41,528 nt of DNA from Sphingobacteriaceae bacterium (lineage in GTDB: Bacteria > Bacteroidota > Bacteroidia > B-17B0 > Aurantibacillaceae). The translations under genes were made by a program, and so were the position numbers. Positions 18,574 through 30,694 of the stretch are shown piece after piece (position 1 is the stretch's first letter; each line of letters starts with the position of its first letter). Under the pieces are notes generated by a model. That model worked only from the letters and a program-made list of their open reading frames with translations. It did no database searches and was not told where the DNA came from. Location of the stretch: the NCBI GenBank assembly GCA_023251775.1, contig JAHEYC010000026.1:1-41528 (forward strand), in the 5' to 3' direction.

Positions 18574-19632
18574 TTAATAGGATGCTTTGGTGTCTGTTCG
18601 GCCTAAATTCTTGCCGTAACCCGACGAAGCATTATAACGCAACATGATCTCCAATCCTCCTTTTAATCTTGAAGCAGGAGTTAATTGCGATACGTTAACG
18701 TCGTAAGCAAAACCTATAGCGTATTTATCATATTGCCATAAGAAAGCAGGAATGATAGCATCTTTGTAACGATAGGATGCTCCAAAGGAAAGGGCACTTG
18801 GTTTTTTAATGGAAGTGAATTTAGATTCATCGGTGATCACATATTTGAACATCAATCCGGTAATGAACTCGCGATTTTTTCCTTGCATATTAAAGATAAT
18901 GCTTGGATCTAATGCAATACGCATCTTAGGAACAAAGAATTCTCCACTTGTATAGAATACATAACGCGTCATTAATTTTTCGCTCAATGTAAAGAATGAA
19001 TTTTTTGGAACTGTGAAGTGATACGCTGCCATACCGCAATCAAATTTACTTCCATCCTTAGAGCTAATATATCTTTCGCTTTGAGAATAACTGTAGTGAA
19101 CTCCCACGCCAAGATCGGTTGATAGAACCGAACTACGCGCCGGTTGCTCTCCATTTGGAGAACTTGCGTCGTACTCGTAGTTATGATATTGTGCGCCCCA
19201 ACGTAAATTAGATGTGCTTACCGTACGATAATTCAAACCATACTGAAATCCTGCAGAAGCTTTTGCATGACGATTAATACGATGAATATAACTGAATCCA
19301 AGACTTGGTAAAAGTGAACTCATTTTTGAATCACCTGCAACATCTCTAATGATATTCAATCCCCATCCAATTCGTTTTCCGCGTAGTTTTTTTCCTGTGC
19401 CACCATCGTATGAAACACCATACGTTTGAAAAGCCTTAGAAGCCCCTGTAACATAACTCCACTGGTTACGATAATTTGCAAGAACGCGTGTATCATAATT
19501 TAAACCAAACAAAGCAGGGTTTAAAGTAATTGGCGTTTCAAGGTATTGTGAGAAATGTATATCCTGTGCCTTGGTGTTTAACCCAAGCAACATGATCATT
19601 CCTGCAAATACAACTCTATTTATAGTTTTCAT
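18574..19632 (-). CDS. PorP/SprF family type IX secretion outer-membrane protein (module B)
   Basis: A 352-aa outer-membrane protein with a signal peptide (MKTINRVVFAGMIMLLGLNTKA) and the family's N-terminal signature AQDIHFSQYLETPITLNPALF. Beta-strand-like segments fill the rest, including ALDPSIIFNMQGKNREFITG and AIGFAYDVNVSQL near the end. It begins 20 nt after the adhesin gene, so the pair is a transcriptional unit, and ends before a strong terminator. It is longer than the 306-aa member at 1740-2660 and clearly diverged from it, suggesting each PorP/SprF serves its own neighbouring adhesin. The C-terminal 20 residues (GYGKNLGRTDTKASY) lack the usual final beta-strand. Confidence 0.92.
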   Translation of the reverse strand: MKTINRVVFAGMIMLLGLNTKAQDIHFSQYLETPITLNPALFGLNYDTRVLANYRNQWSYVTGASKAFQTYGVSYDGGTGKKLRGKRIGWGLNIIRDVAGDSKMSSLLPSLGFSYIHRINRHAKASAGFQYGLNYRTVSTSNLRWGAQYHNYEYDASSPNGEQPARSSVLSTDLGVGVHYSYSQSERYISSKDGSKFDCGMAAYHFTVPKNSFFTLSEKLMTRYVFYTSGEFFVPKMRIALDPSIIFNMQGKNREFITGLMFKYVITDESKFTSIKKPSALSFGASYRYKDAIIPAFLWQYDKYAIGFAYDVNVSQLTPASRLKGGLEIMLRYNASSGYGKNLGRTDTKASY

Positions 19633-19652
19633 AAGTTCTTAATTCTTTTTCT

Positions 19653-22600
19653 TTACCTTATGAGCGAGACATTTCCTTTGAGCGAATATCCCTTGCCCTT
19701 AAAGTCTTTTCCTTCTAATCGGTAAACAAATACACCTGTGTTCAATTCTTGGCCATTAAATGTTCCATCCCAACCAACATTTTGATCGGCTGTTTCCCAA
19801 ACTTTTTGTCCCCAACGATTAAATACTTGGAAGGTCAACGTTTCCAAACAGAAACCATACACCTTCAGGGTTTCATTCTCAGGGTCATCTCTTCCGTTAG
19901 GTGAGAACGCATTTGGCACGAACATTTCACCGCAATCATCAATAACGATAACGTTGATCGTATCATTAGAACAACAACCTTGACTATTACATCCCATTAA
20001 AACATATTGCGTTGTTTGTTGAGGATATACTTTTGTTTTGTTCCCTGTTAAATTACTTATCATGTACGGCGGACTCCATCCATACGTTGCAGCACCGGTA
20101 CCCGTTAATGCAACCGACATACCAAAGCGAATGGTTGTATCACTCAAGGTTTGACCCGGTGGAATAATGGTTGTATTAGGCACGTCAACTACTTTTACAA
20201 ATTGGAATGTACCTGTTGCAACTGCTGGTCCGTATTGATTACTGTCTATTAAGAACACATTGTATTTACCCGGTAAATTATAACATATCGTAGGCGCTTG
20301 CAAGGTGGACGTATTAGGCGCACCACCCGGGAATGTCCATTTTACATATTGCGGACCACCGGCATCTGTAGTGTTCGTAAACGTAACGCATTGTTTTGTA
20401 CAAATTGTATCGTTCCGAATTACCGTTGTAAATGTTACACTCGTTACCCTTCTACAATCGACCACATGAATACTCACAGTATCTTCTCTAAAGCATCCGT
20501 TGATACCGTCGGATCCTCCATTTCCGTTGAAGCTCGATCGGAGCGTATACGTTAGAATTATTGGGAGCTTTGTGACCGGAGAAATAATGATACAAGGATC
20601 AGAGGTTGGTGTTTTAATTGAGCCTTCGTTCATTAACGAATTGGAAGGTGTAGAATAAGAATACCACGTATACGAAGGCACAACACCCGCCTGCAGCGTT
20701 CCATTAAAGTTAACAGCACAAAGCGTTAACGTGTTTGTTGTAATATCTACAATGTCGCCAACATAACAAATAGAATTTGTTGGAACACCATTGATAGTTG
20801 GTATTTGTGCGGCGCTTATTGGCTGAGGAATAATAGTGCAATTAACCAAGCGTTGTTCGGTAACACAATTACGGAAGTCTTTCATCTCAATAGAATATGT
20901 TGTACTCACGGATGGACAGGCGATCGTGATAGGAGCTAAAGGATTTGGTATACTTCCAACGACATTATTTGGAACACTCCAACTATACGTATACGGTTGA
21001 GGCAATGTTGTGTTTGTATTTATGACCGTGAAGTTGAAGCAACCACCTATACACGCAATTGGCATTGGCGGCTGGACGTTCAATGTGGATTGAGGGACAA
21101 CCGTTACCGTAATAACAGCTGTACCTGAACATACCGAAGTAAATGCAGTTACTGTGTATTGTGTTGTTGTTTGCGGACGAGCAATTACGGAGTTACCAAG
21201 ACAAATACTTAAGTATCCGCCAATACACGGAGCCCAGTTATAAGTTGAACCACCATTTGCATTTAGTGTAACAGGTAAAGAAAATTTAGGTGAATTATTT
21301 GCGATACATGTTGTAAAACTAGATTGCGATATACCAACATTTAGCGGTGCCATAGAAGCTATACACACTGCTTTGATGGAAGGACAAACGAACGCTGTTG
21401 ATGAAGCAACAACCGTATAACAACCTGCTCCCATGGAAACAGATGGTTGCACAATGGATCCGGTGAATGTTGTACCTGTCCACGTATAACTCATAGCACC
21501 CGTTGCAGTAAGTGTTGAAGTATAACCTGCGCAAACTGCATTAGCTGTAGTATTCACAAGTAAATTAGGTCCCGGCGTAATTGTAACTGTGATCTGTGCG
21601 TTACTTGTACAACCTCCCGATTCTCCTAAAACATTATATGTTGTGGTTATAGTTGGAGAAGCGTTTACAACGGTACCCACACTACTACTTAAAGTTGCAG
21701 GAGGTGTCCATGTATAATTTGTTGCGCCATTCGCTGTAAGCGCTATGGTTTGCCCTACACAAATACTTGGAGATGTTGGGGTGAGCGTTAATGAGAAAGG
21801 AACATTGCCAACGGTGACGGCAACTGTTTGCGTGCCCGTACATCCGCCGTTGCCTCCAGTTACTGTGTAAATATATGTAGCTTGTACCGTAGAGGGCACA
21901 TCTACCAAAGGATTTGTAGTTGGTGTTAAAGTTGGATTACCCGGAATGCTCCACGTATAATTTGTTGCACCACTTGCGGTGAGCGAAACTGCCGCTGTTG
22001 GACACACTGTAACACTTAAAGGAGTTATCGTTAATGATAATCCTGTGTTAGTGTATGTAACCTGCGCAATTACAGTATTACTGATACACATCCCTTGTGT
22101 ACCTTGTACAACATAGTTTACAACAGAAGGTGATGGACACGTGACAACAATGGAGTTGGTGTTTCCTAATAATGGACCTGCACTGGAAGATAAATTCCAG
22201 GTGTAAGTTGTTGCACCTGCAGCTTGCAATGTAGCATTACTACCAGGACAAACTGTTTGAGGAGGCGTAGCATTAATTGGCAACGAAATATTTACAGTAA
22301 CAACTTGTGATGCTGTTGCAGTTGGAACACCACCCGGAAGTGTGCTACCAAAAACTACAACAGTATAAACACCGGGACCAGGAAATAGAACTGTTGGTGT
22401 ACTATTACCTGTTGGAGGAGTAAATGTAACGCTTGGTGCAGCAGGTAAAGCTGTCCAAGTATAACCTGTAACACCCGGAGGAATATTATTAACTGAAGCA
22501 ACAACTGTCTGCTGAGGACAAGGAATTGTAGCTGCCATTGTCATGGTCATTGTAGCCAATTGAATATCATCAATAGCAATACTTGGATCGGCACCTGCTA

Positions 22601-23252
22601 AGTCGTTGCTTCTCCAATGAAAACCAATTCTTAAATTAGGTATATTATCACAAGTAGATGGTAAGCCCATAGCGAGGAATTGCCATTTACCCTGAGGAAG
22701 ACAACCCACGTTATTTGATGGCGCAATTTGCTGAAGTATATTCCATGTAACTCCACCGTTTGTAGAATAAACAGCATCACAATAATCAGAAACAGGGAGA
22801 CCTTGACCTAAATACTCAAAACTCCATTGGATATTTGTTTTACCTATAGTACTAATATTTGAAGATTCTACACGTTTATTTGTAAATGAAGTTGGGCCTG
22901 CAAGATACGCTGCACCCGGATCAACAATAGGAATAGGAACTAAAATGTTTGAACCTAAGTGTAATGAGCGATCGTTTGTACCACCACAACCAATACCACA
23001 GTTACCAACTAATTGACCTTGTTCAGTTGCACTAATGAACCATTCGTTTGCATCGGCACCGTTTGGAAATGGTACTAATAAAGGAGTTATAGCCCATGCA
23101 CCATTAGTTGGTGTAGCAATAGGAGCAACTGCGTTCGCTAATTGTCCCTGATTACAACCTGTACCAAAAGTCTCTGTCCAAAAAACTTGAGACTTTGATT
23201 CAAGCGCGATCAGTGTAAAAAGTACGAAAAGAGAGTATATAATTTTCTTCAT
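19653..23252 (-). CDS. Large T9SS-secreted adhesin with jelly-roll N-terminus and Ig/PKD repeats
   Basis: A 1199-aa secreted protein. Signal peptide MKKIIYSLFVLFTLIALESKS; residues about 22-235 look like a MAM/choice-of-anchor type jelly roll (FWTETFGTGCNQG to SIAIDDIQLA); then around eight Ig-like repeats of about 80 residues with motifs such as VCPTAAVSLTASGATNYTW and ICVGQTIALTANGATNYTW, each with a Cys near its start. A PKD-like domain is near 980-1060. The last 95 residues (FVPNAFSPNGRDDPEN, FNRWGQKVWET, GWDGTFNGQELNTGVFVYRL) form the gliding motility-associated C-terminal sorting domain. It is predicted to be a surface adhesin or gliding-type filament rather than an enzyme. The partner PorP/SprF gene follows after 20 nt. 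It is rich in Thr, Val, Ser and Pro. Confidence 0.93.
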   Translation of the reverse strand: MKKIIYSLFVLFTLIALESKSQVFWTETFGTGCNQGQLANAVAPIATPTNGAWAITPLLVPFPNGADANEWFISATEQGQLVGNCGIGCGGTNDRSLHLGSNILVPIPIVDPGAAYLAGPTSFTNKRVESSNISTIGKTNIQWSFEYLGQGLPVSDYCDAVYSTNGGVTWNILQQIAPSNNVGCLPQGKWQFLAMGLPSTCDNIPNLRIGFHWRSNDLAGADPSIAIDDIQLATMTMTMAATIPCPQQTVVASVNNIPPGVTGYTWTALPAAPSVTFTPPTGNSTPTVLFPGPGVYTVVVFGSTLPGGVPTATASQVVTVNISLPINATPPQTVCPGSNATLQAAGATTYTWNLSSSAGPLLGNTNSIVVTCPSPSVVNYVVQGTQGMCISNTVIAQVTYTNTGLSLTITPLSVTVCPTAAVSLTASGATNYTWSIPGNPTLTPTTNPLVDVPSTVQATYIYTVTGGNGGCTGTQTVAVTVGNVPFSLTLTPTSPSICVGQTIALTANGATNYTWTPPATLSSSVGTVVNASPTITTTYNVLGESGGCTSNAQITVTITPGPNLLVNTTANAVCAGYTSTLTATGAMSYTWTGTTFTGSIVQPSVSMGAGCYTVVASSTAFVCPSIKAVCIASMAPLNVGISQSSFTTCIANNSPKFSLPVTLNANGGSTYNWAPCIGGYLSICLGNSVIARPQTTTQYTVTAFTSVCSGTAVITVTVVPQSTLNVQPPMPIACIGGCFNFTVINTNTTLPQPYTYSWSVPNNVVGSIPNPLAPITIACPSVSTTYSIEMKDFRNCVTEQRLVNCTIIPQPISAAQIPTINGVPTNSICYVGDIVDITTNTLTLCAVNFNGTLQAGVVPSYTWYSYSTPSNSLMNEGSIKTPTSDPCIIISPVTKLPIILTYTLRSSFNGNGGSDGINGCFREDTVSIHVVDCRRVTSVTFTTVIRNDTICTKQCVTFTNTTDAGGPQYVKWTFPGGAPNTSTLQAPTICYNLPGKYNVFLIDSNQYGPAVATGTFQFVKVVDVPNTTIIPPGQTLSDTTIRFGMSVALTGTGAATYGWSPPYMISNLTGNKTKVYPQQTTQYVLMGCNSQGCCSNDTINVIVIDDCGEMFVPNAFSPNGRDDPENETLKVYGFCLETLTFQVFNRWGQKVWETADQNVGWDGTFNGQELNTGVFVYRLEGKDFKGKGYSLKGNVSLIR

Positions 23253-23391
23253 ATTTTAGTTTACTCTAAAGAATTGATAATTACATTATTAAACCTATAA
23301 GTAGTATACGTTGTTTAGTTTTTAAATTTAGCGAATTTTCACAAATAATACCATAAGGTTTAGTATATAGTACGTCACAATTAGTAAACGG

Positions 23392-23422
23392 TAAAGGTAG
23401 CTATTTCCATAGTTATTAACAA
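23392..23422 (-). promoter_or_regulatory. Candidate promoter for T9SS module B
   Basis: On the minus strand: TTTG ending at 23420, exactly 20 nt, then TACCTTTA (23399-23392). Transcription would begin near 23386, giving a 5' leader of about 130 nt before the ATG at 23252. The rest of 23253-23488 is AT-rich and I see no gene in it. Confidence 0.6.
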
Positions 23423-23488
23423 ATTGTTCATAACCATTTTAACATTTGCGCCATTTACAAACTTTAGGCTGTTAAAGGACTTATACGG

Positions 23489-24247
23489 TTATTTTGGCTC
23501 AAAGGTTTGAAGAAAAAGCTCTTTTCCGTCAAAAACCGCGTAGTTACTGGCACTCAGCCATTGCCCAAGATTGATATAACGGGCTTTTTTGCCCTCCAAG
23601 GGCATGTCTAAGGTGAGGTGGCGATGCCCAAAAATGAAGAAATCGACCTTATTATGTTTAATATGTTCTTTGCAGAATAGATACAGCCATTCTTTTTCTT
23701 CCCCCAAAAATATCTCGTCGGAACTGCCGGTAGCTACCCTACTTTTAATGCTTGCCATGCGCGCAATTGCAAAACCTAAGTTCGGATGAAGTCGTGCATA
23801 TAACCATTGACATACTTTACTTCTAAAAATTGACTTAAGGAATTTGTATTGTTTATCTCCCGGACCTAATCCATCTCCATGTCCGATAAAAAAAACTTTT
23901 TCATTATAGGTTCTTAAAATTGGATCATGATAGACGGTGACATTTAATTCTTTTGTAAAATAATCTTTCATCCACATGTCATGGTTACCTGTAAAGAAAT
24001 TTACTTTAATACCTGAATCGGTTAATTCGGCAACTTTCCCTAACAAACGTGTAAAACCTTTTGGGATCACATGTTTATATTCCCACCAAAAATCGAAGAT
24101 ATCGCCCACCAAATAAATTTCTTCGGCATCTGCTTTTATAGAATCGAGCCAGCGCACCACTTTTTTTTCACGAACAAGACTTTTCTCAGGATCGGGAATT
24201 CCCAAATGAAAATCGGAAGCGAAATATATTTTTTTACCGGGCGTCAC
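23489..24247 (-). CDS. lpxH: UDP-2,3-diacylglucosamine diphosphatase LpxH
   Basis: Hydrolyses UDP-2,3-diacylglucosamine to lipid X and UMP in lipid A synthesis, at the inner face of the inner membrane. The 252-aa protein has all the calcineurin-like metal motifs: ASDFHLG (Asp12, His14), VGDIFDF (Asp49), GNHD (88-90), IGHGDGLGPGD and FIFGHRHLTLD. The basic segment FLKSIFRSKVCQWLYARLHP matches the membrane-associating insert of LpxH rather than generic phosphoesterases. Its start overlaps the stop of the M1 peptidase gene by 4 nt, making it the last gene of the gatB run. Its presence indicates a lipid A-containing outer membrane. Confidence 0.93.
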   Translation of the reverse strand: MTPGKKIYFASDFHLGIPDPEKSLVREKKVVRWLDSIKADAEEIYLVGDIFDFWWEYKHVIPKGFTRLLGKVAELTDSGIKVNFFTGNHDMWMKDYFTKELNVTVYHDPILRTYNEKVFFIGHGDGLGPGDKQYKFLKSIFRSKVCQWLYARLHPNLGFAIARMASIKSRVATGSSDEIFLGEEKEWLYLFCKEHIKHNKVDFFIFGHRHLTLDMPLEGKKARYINLGQWLSASNYAVFDGKELFLQTFEPK

Positions 24248-27200
24248 AGAAAATTATTCTTTATATAGTCTCTTGGTTTAACGTTATGCATATTAAATAT
24301 GAATCGTATGGTATTAAAGAAGCCAACATTGTTCAAAGTTAAAGTTTCTTTTATATCACTGCTATACAACAGTGGAAAATATACTTCGATCACATCATCC
24401 AAAATACTCGCACTTATTCCCGCATCATACACTACTTGTTGTTTGTTCATGGATAATTGCGGTGCAGTTCCAACATCGGCAAATAATCGCAAAGGTGTTT
24501 TTGGAAGTTTAGGTGATTTGATATTTACTGTAACTAAATACGAACTGCTTTGTCCGAGCGGTGTCCACACTTTAAAAGCTCCGTCTGCATCTACAAATTG
24601 ATAAGAAGCCGGTCCATTATATTCTGTCCTTCCAAAGAAATTTGCATCATACAAATAATCTTGTGCACCATTCATTCCGCTTAAACGAAAACGATATGCG
24701 CCTTTTTGAGCATCGGTGCCTTGTAAAAATGTTCCTGCAAATAAGCGTAATTCAACTGCTGATCGTTTTGTTAAGGTGATGGTTTGCTTATACGTTACGC
24801 CCAGTTTGGCCATGATGCCATCCGTTTGAAAATTGGTATTGATACTAAACGGATCGATTGCTCTTTTATTGCTGCATAAATAATTTACCGAAGTAATTGC
24901 CTTGTTCAATTTAATTTTAAAATATAAAGCAGTTGAAGTTACATTACTATTTACAAACAACAACTCTTCTTTATAGATCATATTATACGCCATGCTTAAG
25001 GTATGCTTAATGGAAGTTGTTTTATCTCTGTTCTTGAATTCGAAATTAAGATTTGGTTTTATTTTAAGATAATTCAAAATATAATCGTTCTCGCTTGACG
25101 CAAAATTTTGTACAGAAAAAAATTCATCTGCAAAGCTTTTGGCGAATACACCCGTGCTGATCTTTGTAAAAGCTTGTTTCGGATAAAAATTCAAATTCAT
25201 TTCGGCAAAACCGGTAAATGTTTTACTTCTAAAGCCATACATGGGTGCTAAACTCACATCTACTCTCTTATCAAAAAAACTATAATTATGCAAACAAATG
25301 CCGGCCATAAATCCGTTATATAAATTAAATCCAACAATGGGTAAATAATTGATTTGATTTTTTTGTGGATCTGGAAGTTTAGTTAGAAAATTAAATTGCA
25401 ATGGTTTTGCTTTTCTAAAGATGCCTCTGGTGCGGCAATAATTATTTCTGCGATTCACATCAGGCATAAGGTCTAAACCATCAATTTTAAAATAGTCAAC
25501 ATCACTTGGGGGGAAATCGAGACTGCGAGTTGAATCGGAACCATTAAACCAGGCAAAACCAACCGGTTTTCCATCTTTATATCCATAAATATTTACTGGC
25601 ACAGGAGTTCCCGTTTTATTTTTTACAATTACTTCGTAACTATTGTCCTTATTTCGTTTCACGCGCTTGATCTTGTAATCTATCTTGGCATTTCCGGTGA
25701 TCAAATACTGAGAGAACCACGAGAGATCGTTGCCGCTGAAATACTGAAGTGTATTTACAAGATCTTTCATTTGCGGATGTTTGAATTTATAGTTCTCGTA
25801 ATAAAACTGCATGGCTTTATTAAAAGCTTCATCACCCATATAATCTCTTAAGTAATCCATCACCACTGCAGTTTTGCAATAAATAATAGACCCATAATTA
25901 AAAAGTGAAAGATCCTCCGAATGTGTTTCGATAGGTTGATCAATATTTGCTTTTGCCGAAAATAAATACGCCGCTTCCTTTTCTCGCCAATAGGCCATTT
26001 TATTTATTCCTAAAATTTTGCGTGAAGAATCAATTCCAATAAGCTCTCCAATTTTATAATTAGGATATTTTGCTCTCACATAACTCATTTCGTAAAATGA
26101 ATTAATTCCTTCATCTAGTCCGGGATGATCACGCTCATTACTTCCCAAAATTCCGTAGAACCAATTATGTCCTACTTCGTGCGCAATGGTTACATCCAAT
26201 TCTAAACGCGAACCCACCGAGCCAATAACGGTAATGTTTGGATATTCCATTCCACCTCCCGCCATGATAACGCCATCAACGGCCGATACATTATTGTAAG
26301 GGTAATCGCCCACCAAATACGAATAAAAAATCGTGGATTCGTTCACATAATCTATGGCATCTTTCCAATAATACGCTTGCTTATTTGTAAAATACACCCA
26401 CGTATCAACCGTACGATTTGTATTTGGCAATTGAATTTGATCATGCAAAACATTATAGCGTTTATCGGCAAACCATGCAAGATCATGTACGCGATATTGT
26501 TTGAATTTAATGGTCTTCCATTTGCTACTCGAAGGAGGAAAGGTCATGTTATATGGGTCGAAGGTTTGTTTCTCCATATGCGTTAAGGTGCGAATAACAT
26601 TCTCATTCAAAAAATTCTCTTCGGCTTCGTTATCTTCTCTATCGCCCGTAGCAGATAGAACATAATTTTGAGGAAGAGTGATCGCTACATCAAATGAACC
26701 AAACTCACTGTAAAATTCTCCTTGATCCAAATATGGCATTTGATGCCAGCCTTCTGCATCATACACTGCAGGTTTCGGATACCATTGCGTTATATAATAA
26801 GCCTGATTATCGTGACCTAATCGCGAAAATTTTGCATCAGGGATCTTCACATAAAAAGGTGTGCTGATCCTTAATGTATCTAACGAACGAAGCGGCTCGT
26901 TCAAAATTAATTTACAGATATCGGGGTTTTGCGCATCGTATTCTATTTTTACCGACTTACCATTCACTTTAAAATCCAAACTGTCGATATAGCCGCGCTC
27001 TTCTTTTTTTGCAAAATAAAATTCGGTCTTTTTTAATTTAAGAAGCTGTTTTGCCAAAGCAGTTTCGTTATTCTTATACGCATTAGGCCATAGATGAAAA
27101 TAAATATAGCTTAAGGAATTACTAGAATTATTAATGTATTGCAATTCTTCAAACGCTTTTAAACTATGCTCAACATCATTTAATTTGACATCTATTTTAT

Positions 27201-27324
27201 AATTTACTTCTTGCTGAAAATAAGTTTGCTGTGAGAAAACGTTTGTGCAAATAGCAAAAATCGCCACAAGAAATTTGCAGCGATCTAATTTTAGGTTGAT
27301 TATTTTATTCGTATGAAAGATCAA
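24244..27324 (-). CDS. M1 family (gluzincin) metallopeptidase with long barrel-like C-terminus
   Basis: A 1026-aa exported protein. The start is TTG 27324, 3 nt after the TlpA-like stop; no ATG is available before the signal peptide core FLVAIFAICTNVFS. The N-terminal half is an M1 aminopeptidase: a GAMEN-like GGMEYPN and the zinc signature HEVGHNW (about residue 380) with the third ligand Glu exactly 18 residues after the second His (LDEGIN). A catalytic Tyr is plausible in SIIYCKT. Beyond residue about 640 there is no peptidase similarity I can see; instead there are alternating polar/hydrophobic strands (for example GFNLYNGFMAGICLHNYSFF, VDVSLAPMYGFRSKTFTGFA) reaching the end, which looks like an outer-membrane beta-barrel. 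This would anchor the peptidase in the outer membrane. Confidence 0.88.
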   Translation of the reverse strand: MIFHTNKIINLKLDRCKFLVAIFAICTNVFSQQTYFQQEVNYKIDVKLNDVEHSLKAFEELQYINNSSNSLSYIYFHLWPNAYKNNETALAKQLLKLKKTEFYFAKKEERGYIDSLDFKVNGKSVKIEYDAQNPDICKLILNEPLRSLDTLRISTPFYVKIPDAKFSRLGHDNQAYYITQWYPKPAVYDAEGWHQMPYLDQGEFYSEFGSFDVAITLPQNYVLSATGDREDNEAEENFLNENVIRTLTHMEKQTFDPYNMTFPPSSSKWKTIKFKQYRVHDLAWFADKRYNVLHDQIQLPNTNRTVDTWVYFTNKQAYYWKDAIDYVNESTIFYSYLVGDYPYNNVSAVDGVIMAGGGMEYPNITVIGSVGSRLELDVTIAHEVGHNWFYGILGSNERDHPGLDEGINSFYEMSYVRAKYPNYKIGELIGIDSSRKILGINKMAYWREKEAAYLFSAKANIDQPIETHSEDLSLFNYGSIIYCKTAVVMDYLRDYMGDEAFNKAMQFYYENYKFKHPQMKDLVNTLQYFSGNDLSWFSQYLITGNAKIDYKIKRVKRNKDNSYEVIVKNKTGTPVPVNIYGYKDGKPVGFAWFNGSDSTRSLDFPPSDVDYFKIDGLDLMPDVNRRNNYCRTRGIFRKAKPLQFNFLTKLPDPQKNQINYLPIVGFNLYNGFMAGICLHNYSFFDKRVDVSLAPMYGFRSKTFTGFAEMNLNFYPKQAFTKISTGVFAKSFADEFFSVQNFASSENDYILNYLKIKPNLNFEFKNRDKTTSIKHTLSMAYNMIYKEELLFVNSNVTSTALYFKIKLNKAITSVNYLCSNKRAIDPFSINTNFQTDGIMAKLGVTYKQTITLTKRSAVELRLFAGTFLQGTDAQKGAYRFRLSGMNGAQDYLYDANFFGRTEYNGPASYQFVDADGAFKVWTPLGQSSSYLVTVNIKSPKLPKTPLRLFADVGTAPQLSMNKQQVVYDAGISASILDDVIEVYFPLLYSSDIKETLTLNNVGFFNTIRFIFNMHNVKPRDYIKNNFL

Positions 27325-27327
27325 CGA

Positions 27328-28509
27328 TTACGGTTTTACTTCTGCCTGAGGTTTTCCTGCTAATGCTAATTCAATGGCTTTTTCTAATTCCTCACCTCGT
27401 AAATTCTTTGCAAGGATCTTTCCTTGTTGGTCAATTAATACCGCAAACGGAATTCCTTGCACATTATAAAGTCGGGCCGCTGCGCATTCCCAATATTTAA
27501 GATCACTCACTTGAGGCCAAGTAATTCCGTCCATCTGAATTGCCTCCACCCATTTTTCTTTTGTTTGATCTAAGGATACACCATAAATTTCAAAACCTTT
27601 ATCTTTGAATTTCTTATACGCTTTGATCACATTAGGCATTTCGGCTCTACATGGCTTACACCAACTTGCCCAAAAATCTATCAATACCACTTTTCCTCTG
27701 AACGACGAAAGCGCCAGGTCTTTTCCGTTCACATCCGGTAAATTAATTTCGGGGGCTTCGCTGCCAACTGCCAAAGCAAGACTCTTTCCAACCATCTCAT
27801 GGAACATCAAAATATTTTGATTGCTGGGATATTTTTTCATGAGATTTTTATCCAGTTCAATATAAATATCAGAGTATTTTTCAGGATCCAATCCCTGAAT
27901 TGCAATAATGGAAGCGTACATTCCGGTATTTAATTTTATCACCATCGACAATTTTGCATTCTCCAATTCGATCATGGCCATATAAGGACCTTCCAAAGTT
28001 TTACTTAAGGAATCACCGCGTTTTGCAGCCAATTCAGGATTTGTTTGTTGCAATTTATCAAGACCGATGCTGATGGCAGTAGCTTGAAAAGCCTGAGTTA
28101 ATGAGTCTTTACGCACTTGTAATTTTCTTGCAAGATCATTGTATTGCATAAATAATTTCGTTTCCGCACTGCCTTCTACCTTGTAAGTATTTCCAAGATC
28201 GGTCATGTTGCCGCTAACTTTTACCTTGTCGGCAGAATCTAAAACCAACATCGCAAAATTTTGTTCAGTTACTTTTATGCGATAAAATCCAATTTTTGCA
28301 TCGTAATTGGTGAACGAAAAATCTCCTTTTTCATCTACCACAGTGCTATCCACAACAACGGGTTGCTGACCCGATAATTTCTCAAGATATAACATTTCAC
28401 CCTTTGAGTTTGTGAAATTCCCTGATAATTCGAACGCGGCTTTTTTTTGCGCTTCATCGCAGGCCGATAAGGTTAAAAGTAATGACGTGGCAATAATTAA
28501 TTTTTGCAT
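27328..28509 (-). CDS. TlpA/ResA-like thiol-disulfide lipoprotein with DUF4369-like N-terminus
   Basis: A 393-aa lipoprotein: signal peptide MQKLIIATSLLLTLSAC with the lipobox Cys at residue 17. Residues about 25-130 resemble the DUF4369 beta-domain seen in many Bacteroidota thioredoxin-like proteins, followed by a helical region (about 130-245). The C-terminal AhpC-TSA/thioredoxin domain (about 250-385) has the redox motif ASWCKPCRAEMP (Cys near 283 and 286) and the cis-Pro region NVQGIPFAVLID. It probably reduces or isomerises disulfides in periplasmic or outer-membrane proteins. It sits 4 nt after gatB and 3 nt before the M1 peptidase, so is co-transcribed with both. Confidence 0.92.
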   Translation of the reverse strand: MQKLIIATSLLLTLSACDEAQKKAAFELSGNFTNSKGEMLYLEKLSGQQPVVVDSTVVDEKGDFSFTNYDAKIGFYRIKVTEQNFAMLVLDSADKVKVSGNMTDLGNTYKVEGSAETKLFMQYNDLARKLQVRKDSLTQAFQATAISIGLDKLQQTNPELAAKRGDSLSKTLEGPYMAMIELENAKLSMVIKLNTGMYASIIAIQGLDPEKYSDIYIELDKNLMKKYPSNQNILMFHEMVGKSLALAVGSEAPEINLPDVNGKDLALSSFRGKVVLIDFWASWCKPCRAEMPNVIKAYKKFKDKGFEIYGVSLDQTKEKWVEAIQMDGITWPQVSDLKYWECAAARLYNVQGIPFAVLIDQQGKILAKNLRGEELEKAIELALAGKPQAEVKP

Positions 28510-28513
28510 GGAT

Positions 28514-29965
28514 CTATTTTTTATCTAATGTTTCTTTAACTAATGTATTCAATAATTTGGGGTCGGCTTTTCCTTTACTTGCTTTCATTACTTCGCCAAC
28601 GAACATTCCAAGCAATCCCACTTTTCCTCCTTTATATTCGTCAACTTTTGCAGGGAATTTTTCTAAAACAGAATTAATAAATCCTTGCAGATCTTCCGAA
28701 TTACTATTTTGAATAAGATCTAATTTTTTGGCGATATCTTCGGCGTTTGCTGTTGGACTTACTATCAATTCCGGAAATAATTTTGTAGCCGCGGCTGTAT
28801 TACTCACTTTGCCGTCGTCGATCAATTTAATTATCTCGGCAATTTTTACAGGCTTCAATTCAAATTTTTGAATGGTGATGGCGCGGTCGTTCAGCGACGA
28901 ACGAATGGTTCCCATCACCCAATTGGCTGCGCTCTTGTAATTTTTTGTGTGGGACACAAGTTCATTGTAATAAGCTGCGATCTCTTTTAATTCAGTCAAC
29001 TGAAACGCGTCGTATTCACTCAAACCATATTCTTTTGTATAACACTCAAATAATTGCGCAGGTAAAACAGGTAATTTGCTTTTAATAGTTTCAATATAAC
29101 TTTTGGTAACATAAACCGGTTGCAGATCGGGTTCAGGAAAATAACGATAATCATTTGCGCTTTCTTTACTTCTTAAGGAGAACGTGCTTCCATTCACCGC
29201 ATCAAAACTGCGTGTTTCAACGGCAATAATTTCGTTCTTCTCAACAAGATCAACTTGTCTTTTTATCTCAAAATCAATAGCGCGTTGTACATTTCTAAAT
29301 GAGTTCATGTTCTTTACCTCTACTTTTTTTCCGAATTCGGGCGCGCCTTTTATGCGAACCGAAATATTTGCATCACAACGTAAAGATCCTTCTTCCATAT
29401 TTCCATCGCAAATATCCAAGTAACGAACTAATTTTCGCACTTCATTCAAATACGCATAAGCTTCTTCGCCTGTACGAAGTTCGGGCTCTGTTACTATTTC
29501 TAAAAGAGGAGTTCCGGCGCGATTAAGATCAATTAGTGTATGAAAAGGATCAACATCATGAATACTTTTCCCCGCATCTTCTTCCATGTGAATACGCGTT
29601 AAGTTCAAACGTTTGTCTTGATCTTTATCCTTATAATTTACAAAACCCCCTGTGCAAATTGGTGTTTTATCTTGCGTTATCTGATAGCCTTTTGGAAGAT
29701 CGGCGTAAAAATAATTCTTGCGTGCAAATTGATTTTCTTCGCGGATGTTCGCATTTACCGCTAATCCTAATTTCACTGCAAATTCAATGGCCGATCTATT
29801 TACCATTGGCAAAGTGCCGGGATGTCCCAACGAAATAACACTCACATTGGTATTTGGCATAGCGCCATACTCCGCCACATCATTACTATACATTTTTGTT
29901 TTTGTAAGTAACTGAATGTGGCATTCTAAACCAATAACCGCTTCGTATTTTTCGTAAACACTCAT
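28514..29965 (-). CDS. gatB: Asp-tRNA(Asn)/Glu-tRNA(Gln) amidotransferase subunit B
   Basis: GatB binds the mischarged tRNA and activates its carboxyl for transamidation within the GatCAB complex. The 483-aa protein has the normal length. It shows the N-terminal YEAVIGLECHIQLLTKTKMY, the GHPGTLPMVN block, FARKNYFYADLPKGYQITQ, the HMEEDAGKSIHD segment, NRAGTPLLEIVTEPE and the C-terminal YqeY-like tail domain (about 330-483, ending KADPKLLNTLVKETLDKK). gatA and gatC are not in the window. It heads the four-gene run gatB, TlpA-like, M1 peptidase, lpxH. A -7-like TATCTTTA (minus strand, 29981-29974) lies 8 nt before the ATG but lacks a clear TTG. Confidence 0.97.
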   Translation of the reverse strand: MSVYEKYEAVIGLECHIQLLTKTKMYSNDVAEYGAMPNTNVSVISLGHPGTLPMVNRSAIEFAVKLGLAVNANIREENQFARKNYFYADLPKGYQITQDKTPICTGGFVNYKDKDQDKRLNLTRIHMEEDAGKSIHDVDPFHTLIDLNRAGTPLLEIVTEPELRTGEEAYAYLNEVRKLVRYLDICDGNMEEGSLRCDANISVRIKGAPEFGKKVEVKNMNSFRNVQRAIDFEIKRQVDLVEKNEIIAVETRSFDAVNGSTFSLRSKESANDYRYFPEPDLQPVYVTKSYIETIKSKLPVLPAQLFECYTKEYGLSEYDAFQLTELKEIAAYYNELVSHTKNYKSAANWVMGTIRSSLNDRAITIQKFELKPVKIAEIIKLIDDGKVSNTAAATKLFPELIVSPTANAEDIAKKLDLIQNSNSEDLQGFINSVLEKFPAKVDEYKGGKVGLLGMFVGEVMKASKGKADPKLLNTLVKETLDKK

Positions 29966-30019
29966 TAAGGGTGTAAAGATAGTATTATTTGGAAATTATT
30001 TCTGATTACCTGTCCGTTC

Positions 30020-30124
30020 TTTTAGCCACTAATTTCACGAATTTTCCTAAATTTCGATTAGTGAAATATTGCACTAATTGTCGTTAACACTTTAGCATCT
30101 ATTAGTGGAATTCGTGGCTAAAAA
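30020..30124. repeat. Fold-back repeat built of CACTAAT and CACGAATT words
   Basis: The outer arms TTTTAGCCAC (30020-30029) and GTGGCTAAAA (30115-30124) are a perfect 10-bp inverted repeat. Inside, CACTAAT occurs at 30027-30033 and 30072-30078 and its complement ATTAGTG at 30057-30063 and 30101-30107, alternating in orientation; CACGAATT (30036-30043) pairs with AATTCGTG (30109-30116). It occupies most of the gap between the gatB run and the NlpC/P60 gene. Confidence 0.8.
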
Positions 30125-30130
30125 CGTTTT

Positions 30131-30694
30131 CTACATATGCAGTTTAACCCTTCCGGCCCCATAATAATATTTTTTGTAATAGGTTTCGCCAAGATCATTG
30201 ATCATGACCCCTTTTGAGGTACTGGCGTGAACAAATTTATTGTCCTTTAAATAAACTCCCACATGACTCACGTCTTTGGTTCCCGCATTAAAGAACACAA
30301 GATCTCCTTCGCGCAAATGACTGGTTTTAATATGTTCGGCTTCCTTATAAATTAGCGATGTATTTCGTCCAACTGTTACGCCATACACTTTTTTGAAAAG
30401 AATTCCCGTAAAGCAACTGCAATCAACACCATTTTTGTCGCAACCCCCATATTTATACGTGGTGCCATACCAATCGCTTATGAACGAATACAATTTTTTA
30501 TTGCGAACTTCCTTTTCGGTGATGGATAATTTTTCGGCAACGATGGCAACTTTGTTCGAAGAAGTTGATTTGATGGTGATCTTATCTTCTACATCTTTTT
30601 TGTGGTGACAAGAAGAAATAAAAAATGAAATTCCAAGCGCCAAAAGCAAAGTTTTGGGTGTAGACAAAATAATATTTGGAACATAGTTTCTCAT
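30131..30694 (-). CDS. NlpC/P60 family lipoprotein (Spr-like peptidoglycan endopeptidase)
   Basis: A 187-aa exported protein with signal sequence LLLALGISFFISSC; Cys29 is a plausible lipidation site although the lipobox is non-standard. After a linker rich in Lys, Ser and Thr (30-65), the NlpC/P60 domain carries YKYGGCDKNGVDCSCFTG (catalytic Cys92), VSHVGVYL (His144) and FVHAS (His156). The residue after DCS is Cys rather than the common Gly or Ala, and there is another Cys at 85, so a nearby disulfide or redox sensitivity is possible. MepS/Spr homologues cleave D-Ala-mDAP cross-links to permit wall growth. It stands alone between a fold-back repeat and a divergent promoter region. Confidence 0.9.
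   Translation of the reverse strand: MRNYVPNIILSTPKTLLLALGISFFISSCHHKKDVEDKITIKSTSSNKVAIVAEKLSITEKEVRNKKLYSFISDWYGTTYKYGGCDKNGVDCSCFTGILFKKVYGVTVGRNTSLIYKEAEHIKTSHLREGDLVFFNAGTKDVSHVGVYLKDNKFVHASTSKGVMINDLGETYYKKYYYGAGRVKLHM

Follow-up and report, generated by a model that had tools for sequence, protein, structure and literature searches.

M1 aminopeptidases are usually soluble proteins or tethered through one helix, and in PepN and ERAP1 a HEAT-type domain IV closes over the active site. Proteins of the Omp85/TpsB superfamily (BamA, TamA, Sam50, FhaC) have a barrel of 16 strands in which a long loop joins strands 11 and 12 and strand 13 bears an FxDxG-like motif; a [VIL]RG[FYW] motif in loop 6 is an Omp85 signature. 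Proteins have also been described in which an enzyme is joined to a barrel. Ten Omp85 subfamilies were distinguished by Heinz and Lithgow in 2014 (PMC4104836), and excerpts of that paper describe a 'Metallo' subfamily in which a metal-dependent enzyme domain is likewise combined with an Omp85 barrel. However, its enzyme domain, PF00149 (in Pfam a calcineurin-like phosphoesterase), is not an M1 peptidase, and the word 'peptidase' is absent from the main text of the paper. Type Vd autotransporters such as PlpD and FplA, according to excerpts of PMC6555100, share the plan of an N-terminal enzyme followed by a C-terminal 16-stranded barrel, but their enzyme is a patatin lipase accompanied by one POTRA domain, and the enzyme of PlpD reaches the cell surface. 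AaaA of Pseudomonas aeruginosa is also an aminopeptidase tied to the cell surface, although it is presented as a classical three-domain autotransporter in the excerpted text of PMC3426542.

The stretch of DNA analysed in this study (the window) comprises 41,528 nucleotides of a contig from a Sphingobacteriaceae bacterium (JAHEYC010000026.1, assembly GCA_023251775.1). All features discussed below lie on its reverse strand. A gene at 24244..27324, with a TTG start, encodes a 1026-residue protein in which an M1 aminopeptidase is fused to a predicted Omp85-like barrel; the gene was delimited by the open reading frame call and by long homologues. Compared to tricorn factor F3, PepN and ERAP1 (PF01433), the protein has the same zinc site, exopeptidase glutamate and three N-terminal domains, but a predicted membrane barrel takes the place of their C-terminal HEAT-type domain. 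The first-pass annotation of this DNA had placed a peptidase-barrel fusion at 24244-26000. This interval is inside the real gene but holds only residues ~442-1026, and the catalytic motifs that were quoted with it, although present, fall outside. Promoter and terminator scans of 23000-30400 gave no excess over shuffled sequences (18 vs 27.2 and 5 vs 5.4, respectively).

Residues 1-31 (27232..27324) form a probable signal peptide, modelled as a helix at residues 6-31; by eye it appears to be of the SPI type without a lipobox cysteine. The M1 ectodomain follows at residues 34-628 (25441..27225) and consists of an N-terminal beta domain, a thermolysin-like catalytic domain and Ig-like strands, subdivisions that we take to correspond to those named in M1 structures. 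Pfam assigned Peptidase_M1 (PF01433) to residues 372-537 (E 1.6e-17, 64.3 bits against a cut-off of 27.7) and no second family at E<=1 in the whole protein. Conservation was assessed in an alignment of 77 sequences, namely that of the window protein and those from 76 of the 80 loci kept from a scan of genome contigs; the remaining four, which fall short of 931 residues, were not included. The zinc site, HEVGH-x18-E at residues 382-405 (26110..26181), is exact, and H382, E383, H386 and E405 are invariant (77/77), as are E360 and Y482, the latter being, as we assume from known M1 enzymes, the catalytic tyrosine. The exopeptidase motif GGMEYPN (residues 357-363, 26236..26256) is a variant of the GxMEN type with Tyr instead of Asn after the Glu, and G358, M359, E360 and Y361 were found in all 77 sequences. 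The full model resembles tricorn factor F3, PepN and ERAP1 at Z-scores of 29-30 (27.1-30.3 among the 50 matches listed), with Z 30.3 to 1z1w over 464 residues. Given the zinc site, the invariant residues and the M1 fold matches, the catalytic half is complete and conserved, as had been proposed from GGMEYPN, HEVGHNW and the Glu 18 residues on.

The last 382 residues of the protein had no Pfam match, and no PDB sequence was matched by a profile of the barrel at E<=10. When the barrels of 61 sequences (window protein included) were scanned against Pfam, 19 families were hit by one member each, with a best E of 0.0081; one of these was Omp_AT, an outer-membrane barrel family (E 0.033). AlphaFold2 modelling of the full protein with the 77-sequence alignment (pLDDT 91.7, pTM 0.88) placed Ig-like strands at residues 550-614, then a linker (residues 629-655, 25360..25440) and a domain of 16 strands at 656-1010 that ends in a short C-terminal helix (residues 656-1026, 24247..25359). 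Strands 1-8 span residues 656-667, 671-679, 688-697, 702-713, 719-736, 748-763, 772-792 and 799-819; strands 9-11, at 826-834, 839-850 and 856-868, are followed by a loop of 60 residues, and strands 12-16 are at 929-936, 945-953, 964-975, 979-987 and 1007-1010. Modelled alone (382 residues, 61 sequences), the region gave nearly identical strands (pLDDT 91.3, pTM 0.87), both models coming from one program with overlapping alignments.

Structure searches with the barrel pointed in one direction. The 50 PDB matches listed by Foldseek were entries for BamA/BAM, Sam50, CdiB and TamA, including one whose title says no more than 'membrane complex'; E-values started at 4.8e-8, and TM-scores normalised by model length were 0.37-0.50, with rmsd 8-13 over 358-445 columns. 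All 50 entries listed from VIA-align were BamA, Sam50, TamA, FhaC or CdiB (Z 15.1-17.6, rmsd 4.2-6.1). Low TM-scores and identities of 6-13% suggest a shared fold rather than a close relative. Judging from the structures matched, the barrel is probably closed. These models and matches to Omp85-superfamily barrels agree with the suggestion in the first-pass annotation that the C-terminal part is a probable outer-membrane barrel; the structure prediction proposed there yielded neither a soluble beta-sandwich nor a HEAT domain, and both readings were dropped in favour of the 16 strands seen in each model. The alternation of hydrophobic and polar residues on which that suggestion had drawn is real but not diagnostic, the two faces averaging 1.94 and -0.77 in barrel strands and 1.67 and -0.74 in M1/Ig strands. 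We therefore dropped amphipathicity as evidence, and the predicted barrel rests on structure models instead. The proposed layout was also refined: the fusion is real, but Ig-like strands and a linker lie between peptidase and barrel, and the barrel is specifically Omp85-like.

Some further features recall Omp85 proteins, in addition to the 16 strands. The extended loop that connects strand 11 to strand 12 (residues 869-928, 24541..24720) is at the position of Omp85 L6 and contains an Arg, R899, conserved in 77/77 sequences. FADVG on strand 13 (residues 948-952, 24469..24483) is similar to the Omp85 FxDxG, and this pattern occurs at the aligned columns in 49/77 sequences. In contrast to the Omp85/TpsB superfamily, the window barrel lacks [VIL]RG[FYW] in this loop, a PF01103 match and POTRA domains. 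The only [VIL]RG[FYW] in the last 400 residues of the 77 sequences (in L140) aligned to strand 11 and not to loop 6. A scan of the window barrel together with 60 relatives gave no PF01103 match at E<=1. No POTRA family was matched by the window protein in Pfam, and no helix of four or more residues is present between residues 543 and 870 of the model, which thus contains no POTRA fold. The missing loop signature is a softer test than it appears, because a similar pattern, [LVIF]RG[FYW], was found in the last 400 residues of only 20/30 PF01103-type proteins picked from the same class; the other ten lack it, some of them being cut short. A near-invariant RxFxG (R860 in 74, F862 in 74 and G864 in 76 of the 77 sequences) was considered as a lost VRGF and rejected, since a deep alignment pairs it with NTRVF on strand 11 of a paralogue and not with the LRGF of that protein.

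This paralogue is encoded in the same genome (L055:5824-9027, reverse strand, G000:C107) and is its second M1-barrel protein. A search of the genome with the window protein detected five places at E<=0.001, namely the gene itself and four that match the M1 part only (residues 33-579, 34-565, 477-572 and 478-542), and the first of these four lies in the paralogue. It has 1067 residues, an LRGF loop motif and FGDAG, and its family was represented by 24 proteins from 24 genomes (our genome and 23 other near genomes). Domain order is common to the two families, but [LV]RG[FY], which is absent from the loop of the window type, was present in 23 of the 24 paralogue-family members, with MRGF in the remaining one; an FxDxG-type motif was found in all 24. 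PF01103 was not detected in any of the 24. Comparison of whole-protein profiles aligned the two families over residues 34-692, i.e., M1 and the first barrel strands (E 8.9e-91), and over a second stretch, 853-974 (E 0.004). In a tree of the M1 domains of 34 window-type proteins (a set reduced by hand), 24 paralogues and four barrel-less proteins (62 rows in all; quick method, midpoint root), each of the three groups occupied one side of a branch, with supports of 100, 100 and 37, respectively, a result compatible with either one or two origins of the fusion.

Barrel profiles offered a further link. No significant match emerged from a first, shallower round, in which the values were probability 8.8 and E 0.0038 for window type against paralogue and E 0.17 for paralogue against Omp85. 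After addition of 29 window-type sequences and nine that match the paralogue barrel, 90 window-type barrels were compared with 32 of the paralogue type (23 paralogues, eight stand-alone barrels of 410-455 residues and one further M1 protein), and most of the barrel aligned with a probability of 95.4 and E 1.7e-8. The paralogue-type barrels in turn matched PF01103-type proteins (87.4, E 3.7e-6), represented in both rounds by the last 430 residues of those 24 of the 30 picked proteins with lengths of 700-1000. The direct comparison of window-type with PF01103-type barrels was not significant (E 0.023), and neither were FadL controls (E 0.12 and 0.37). The sequence link between the window barrel and Omp85 is thus transitive, via paralogue-type barrels. 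As the window protein has no POTRAs and its barrel neither the signature nor a Pfam match, we describe this barrel as Omp85-like and refrain from assigning it to Omp85 itself.

Some additional proteins were noted in these searches. The eight stand-alone barrels (L257-L261 and L263-L265) contain [LI]RGY motifs and are related to the barrel of the paralogue; no Pfam match was found in the five that were scanned. Two longer M1 proteins have an extra N-terminal part: one of 1428 residues (L052:3685-7971), and one of at least 1479 residues in a frame of 1522 (L195:3-4439), truncated where its stretch begins, which ends in paralogue-type barrel motifs. In addition, a window-type homologue (L024, G023:C29) has one TAA inside the match, possibly a matter of start, end or assembly.

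The layout had been thought unusual, but it is not peculiar to this genome, in which the paralogue has it too. Some match was present in all of the 60 nearest genomes (our own included), and in 46 of the 60 a single, near-full-length match extended from residue 33 or earlier to residue 992 or later. The scan of genome contigs detected at least 579 stretches encoding a relative, not all of them necessarily of the window type; the 80 that were kept carry names of Bacteroidota, including Crocinitomix algicola, except for three titled Chlorobiota and one only bacterium. In a sample of 296 genomes of the phylum, the barrel profile matched 50, with a single copy in each and all in the class of the window, and 246 had no match at the same threshold. 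The 50 matches lie in open frames of 927-1055 residues, except for two of 445 and 501 residues, the 501-residue frame containing an in-frame TAG. Paralogue-type barrels were found in 61 of the same 296 genomes. Only our own genome was listed for both types, suggesting that the two coexist among near relatives and not in the wider sample.

The gene has recurrent neighbours. Downstream, with an overlap of 4 nt, is a gene for an LpxH-like phosphoesterase (23489..24247). Its two best NCBIfam matches were LpxH models, both scoring below the curated cut-offs (88.5 bits against 134, and 79.5 against 190.35), and all nine PDB matches at E<=0.001 were UDP-2,3-diacylglucosamine hydrolases; on these similarities it is probably LpxH. 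Upstream, after a gap of 3 nt, is a gene for a TlpA/ResA-like thioredoxin-fold protein with DUF4369 (27328..28509). It is possibly a lipoprotein, although the signal is weak (Pfam LPAM_1, 17.1 bits against a cut-off of 20). Upstream of the TlpA-like gene is gatB (28514..29965). The initial description of the neighbours as lpxH and a TlpA-like lipoprotein thus holds for the adjoining genes and less firmly for their names. Occurrence of these neighbours was assessed in the 80 kept loci out of at least 579, a neighbour being a blastp match at E<=1e-10 to the genes of the window. Where at least 1.5 kb of flank was available, 42 of 63 loci had an LpxH-like gene starting no more than 600 nt downstream, and 40 of 64 had a TlpA-like gene ending no more than 900 nt upstream; both were present in 27 of 52 testable loci, and gatB was upstream in 28 of 59. 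Most LpxH-like gaps were short (29 nt or less in 35 of 47), with seven being 4-nt overlaps. Elsewhere in the window, a PorP/SprF-family gene (TIGR03519, 162.5 bits, cut-off 90.55) adjoins a gene for a 1199-aa PKD protein, together at 18574-23252, and the PKD protein carries a CHU_C type IX secretion signal; the two are probably a T9SS cargo and partner pair.

Given a complete and invariant catalytic site, a barrel predicted to have Omp85 topology and a recurrent gene order with envelope-related neighbours, we think it reasonably likely that the protein is an M1 aminopeptidase with an outer-membrane anchor and its enzyme on the periplasmic side, where it most likely trims free N-termini near that membrane. 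Its location, orientation, activity and substrates are here proposed from models and sequence. The signal peptide would take the protein across the inner membrane, and BAM would insert the C-terminal barrel into the outer membrane, as its fold suggests. Even-stranded barrels, as a rule, have both ends in the periplasm, which would leave the N-terminal enzyme on the periplasmic side, at the place of the POTRA domains in other Omp85 proteins. With no HEAT domain IV to cover it, the active site is expected to be open and may admit the N-termini of longer peptides or unfolded proteins. Trimming of peptides and proteins beside the outer membrane could serve quality control or peptide scavenging.

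Connections between strands are consistent with this orientation. On the side away from the termini they measure 3, 4, 11, 6, 4, 60, 10 and 19 residues in the model, and among relatives loops 3, 5, 6, 7 and 8 reach up to 16, 19, 71, 28 and 35 residues, respectively. The seven connections on the near side measure 8, 5, 8, 6, 5, 8 and 3 residues and do not exceed 13 in relatives. Half of the eight far-side loops are no longer than near-side turns; the greater variability of the far side nevertheless fits a barrel with periplasmic termini and an enzyme in the periplasm. Overall, the periplasm would seem about twice as likely a side for the enzyme as the other.

If the enzyme were on the other side, the protein might resemble a type Vd autotransporter, with the barrel passing the M1 domain to the surface, where it would digest extracellular peptides for nutrition. 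The order of enzyme and 16-stranded barrel is common to PlpD, which displays a patatin lipase, and other type Vd proteins (PMC6555100, excerpts), and AaaA, as excerpted from PMC3426542, is an aminopeptidase tethered at the cell surface that serves growth on peptides. However, the POTRA domain of type Vd proteins is lacking here, the type Vd passengers characterised by 2019 were only lipases or esterases in the excerpted text of PMC6555100, and the loop between strands 11 and 12, predicted with high confidence, suggests a plugged lumen. We regard surface exposure by this route as the main alternative, possible but rather unlikely.

Given its BamA/TamA/Sam50 fold, the barrel might also act, like BamA or TamA, chiefly in membrane biogenesis or translocation, and the M1 head would then trim or clear its clients as well. 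A precedent would be BepA, a periplasmic zinc peptidase that acts on LptD at BAM (PMC8423444, in excerpt), and gene order with an LpxH-like gene would be in line with such a role. Still, POTRA domains and the Omp85 loop signature are both absent, the latter with the reservation that a third of the PF01103-type picks, some cut short, lack a like pattern, and none of the BAM subunits of F. johnsoniae (BamA, D, G, H, M and P) is presented as an M1 protein in the excerpts of PMC12611786. We therefore consider this role improbable. BamM was also examined as a known counterpart and rejected, its M referring to a metal ion (calcium) and BamM being a surface lipoprotein according to the same excerpts. 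Finally, a soluble beta domain in place of the barrel, or an artefact of modelling, as the missing Pfam family and loop signature of the window barrel and its non-diagnostic amphipathicity might allow, is very hard to reconcile with two high-confidence models (from one program and overlapping alignments), with uniform structure matches and with homologous paralogues that carry Omp85 signatures.

Both the enzyme and the fold are known, and the novelty lies in their combination; no report of an M1-barrel or M1-Omp85 fusion was found in the open-access literature searched, as judged by titles and the starts of abstracts. A broader and quite doubtful reading is that many Bacteroidota have Omp85-type machines in which the POTRA array is replaced by an active M1 peptidase, with the barrel taking up or threading polypeptides, the peptidase processing their N-termini and the genes being coupled to lipid A synthesis and thiol chemistry. 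If the outer-membrane aminopeptidase itself is as proposed, many Bacteroidota would have a zinc aminopeptidase permanently stationed at their outer membrane, and the Omp85 fold would have found a further use.
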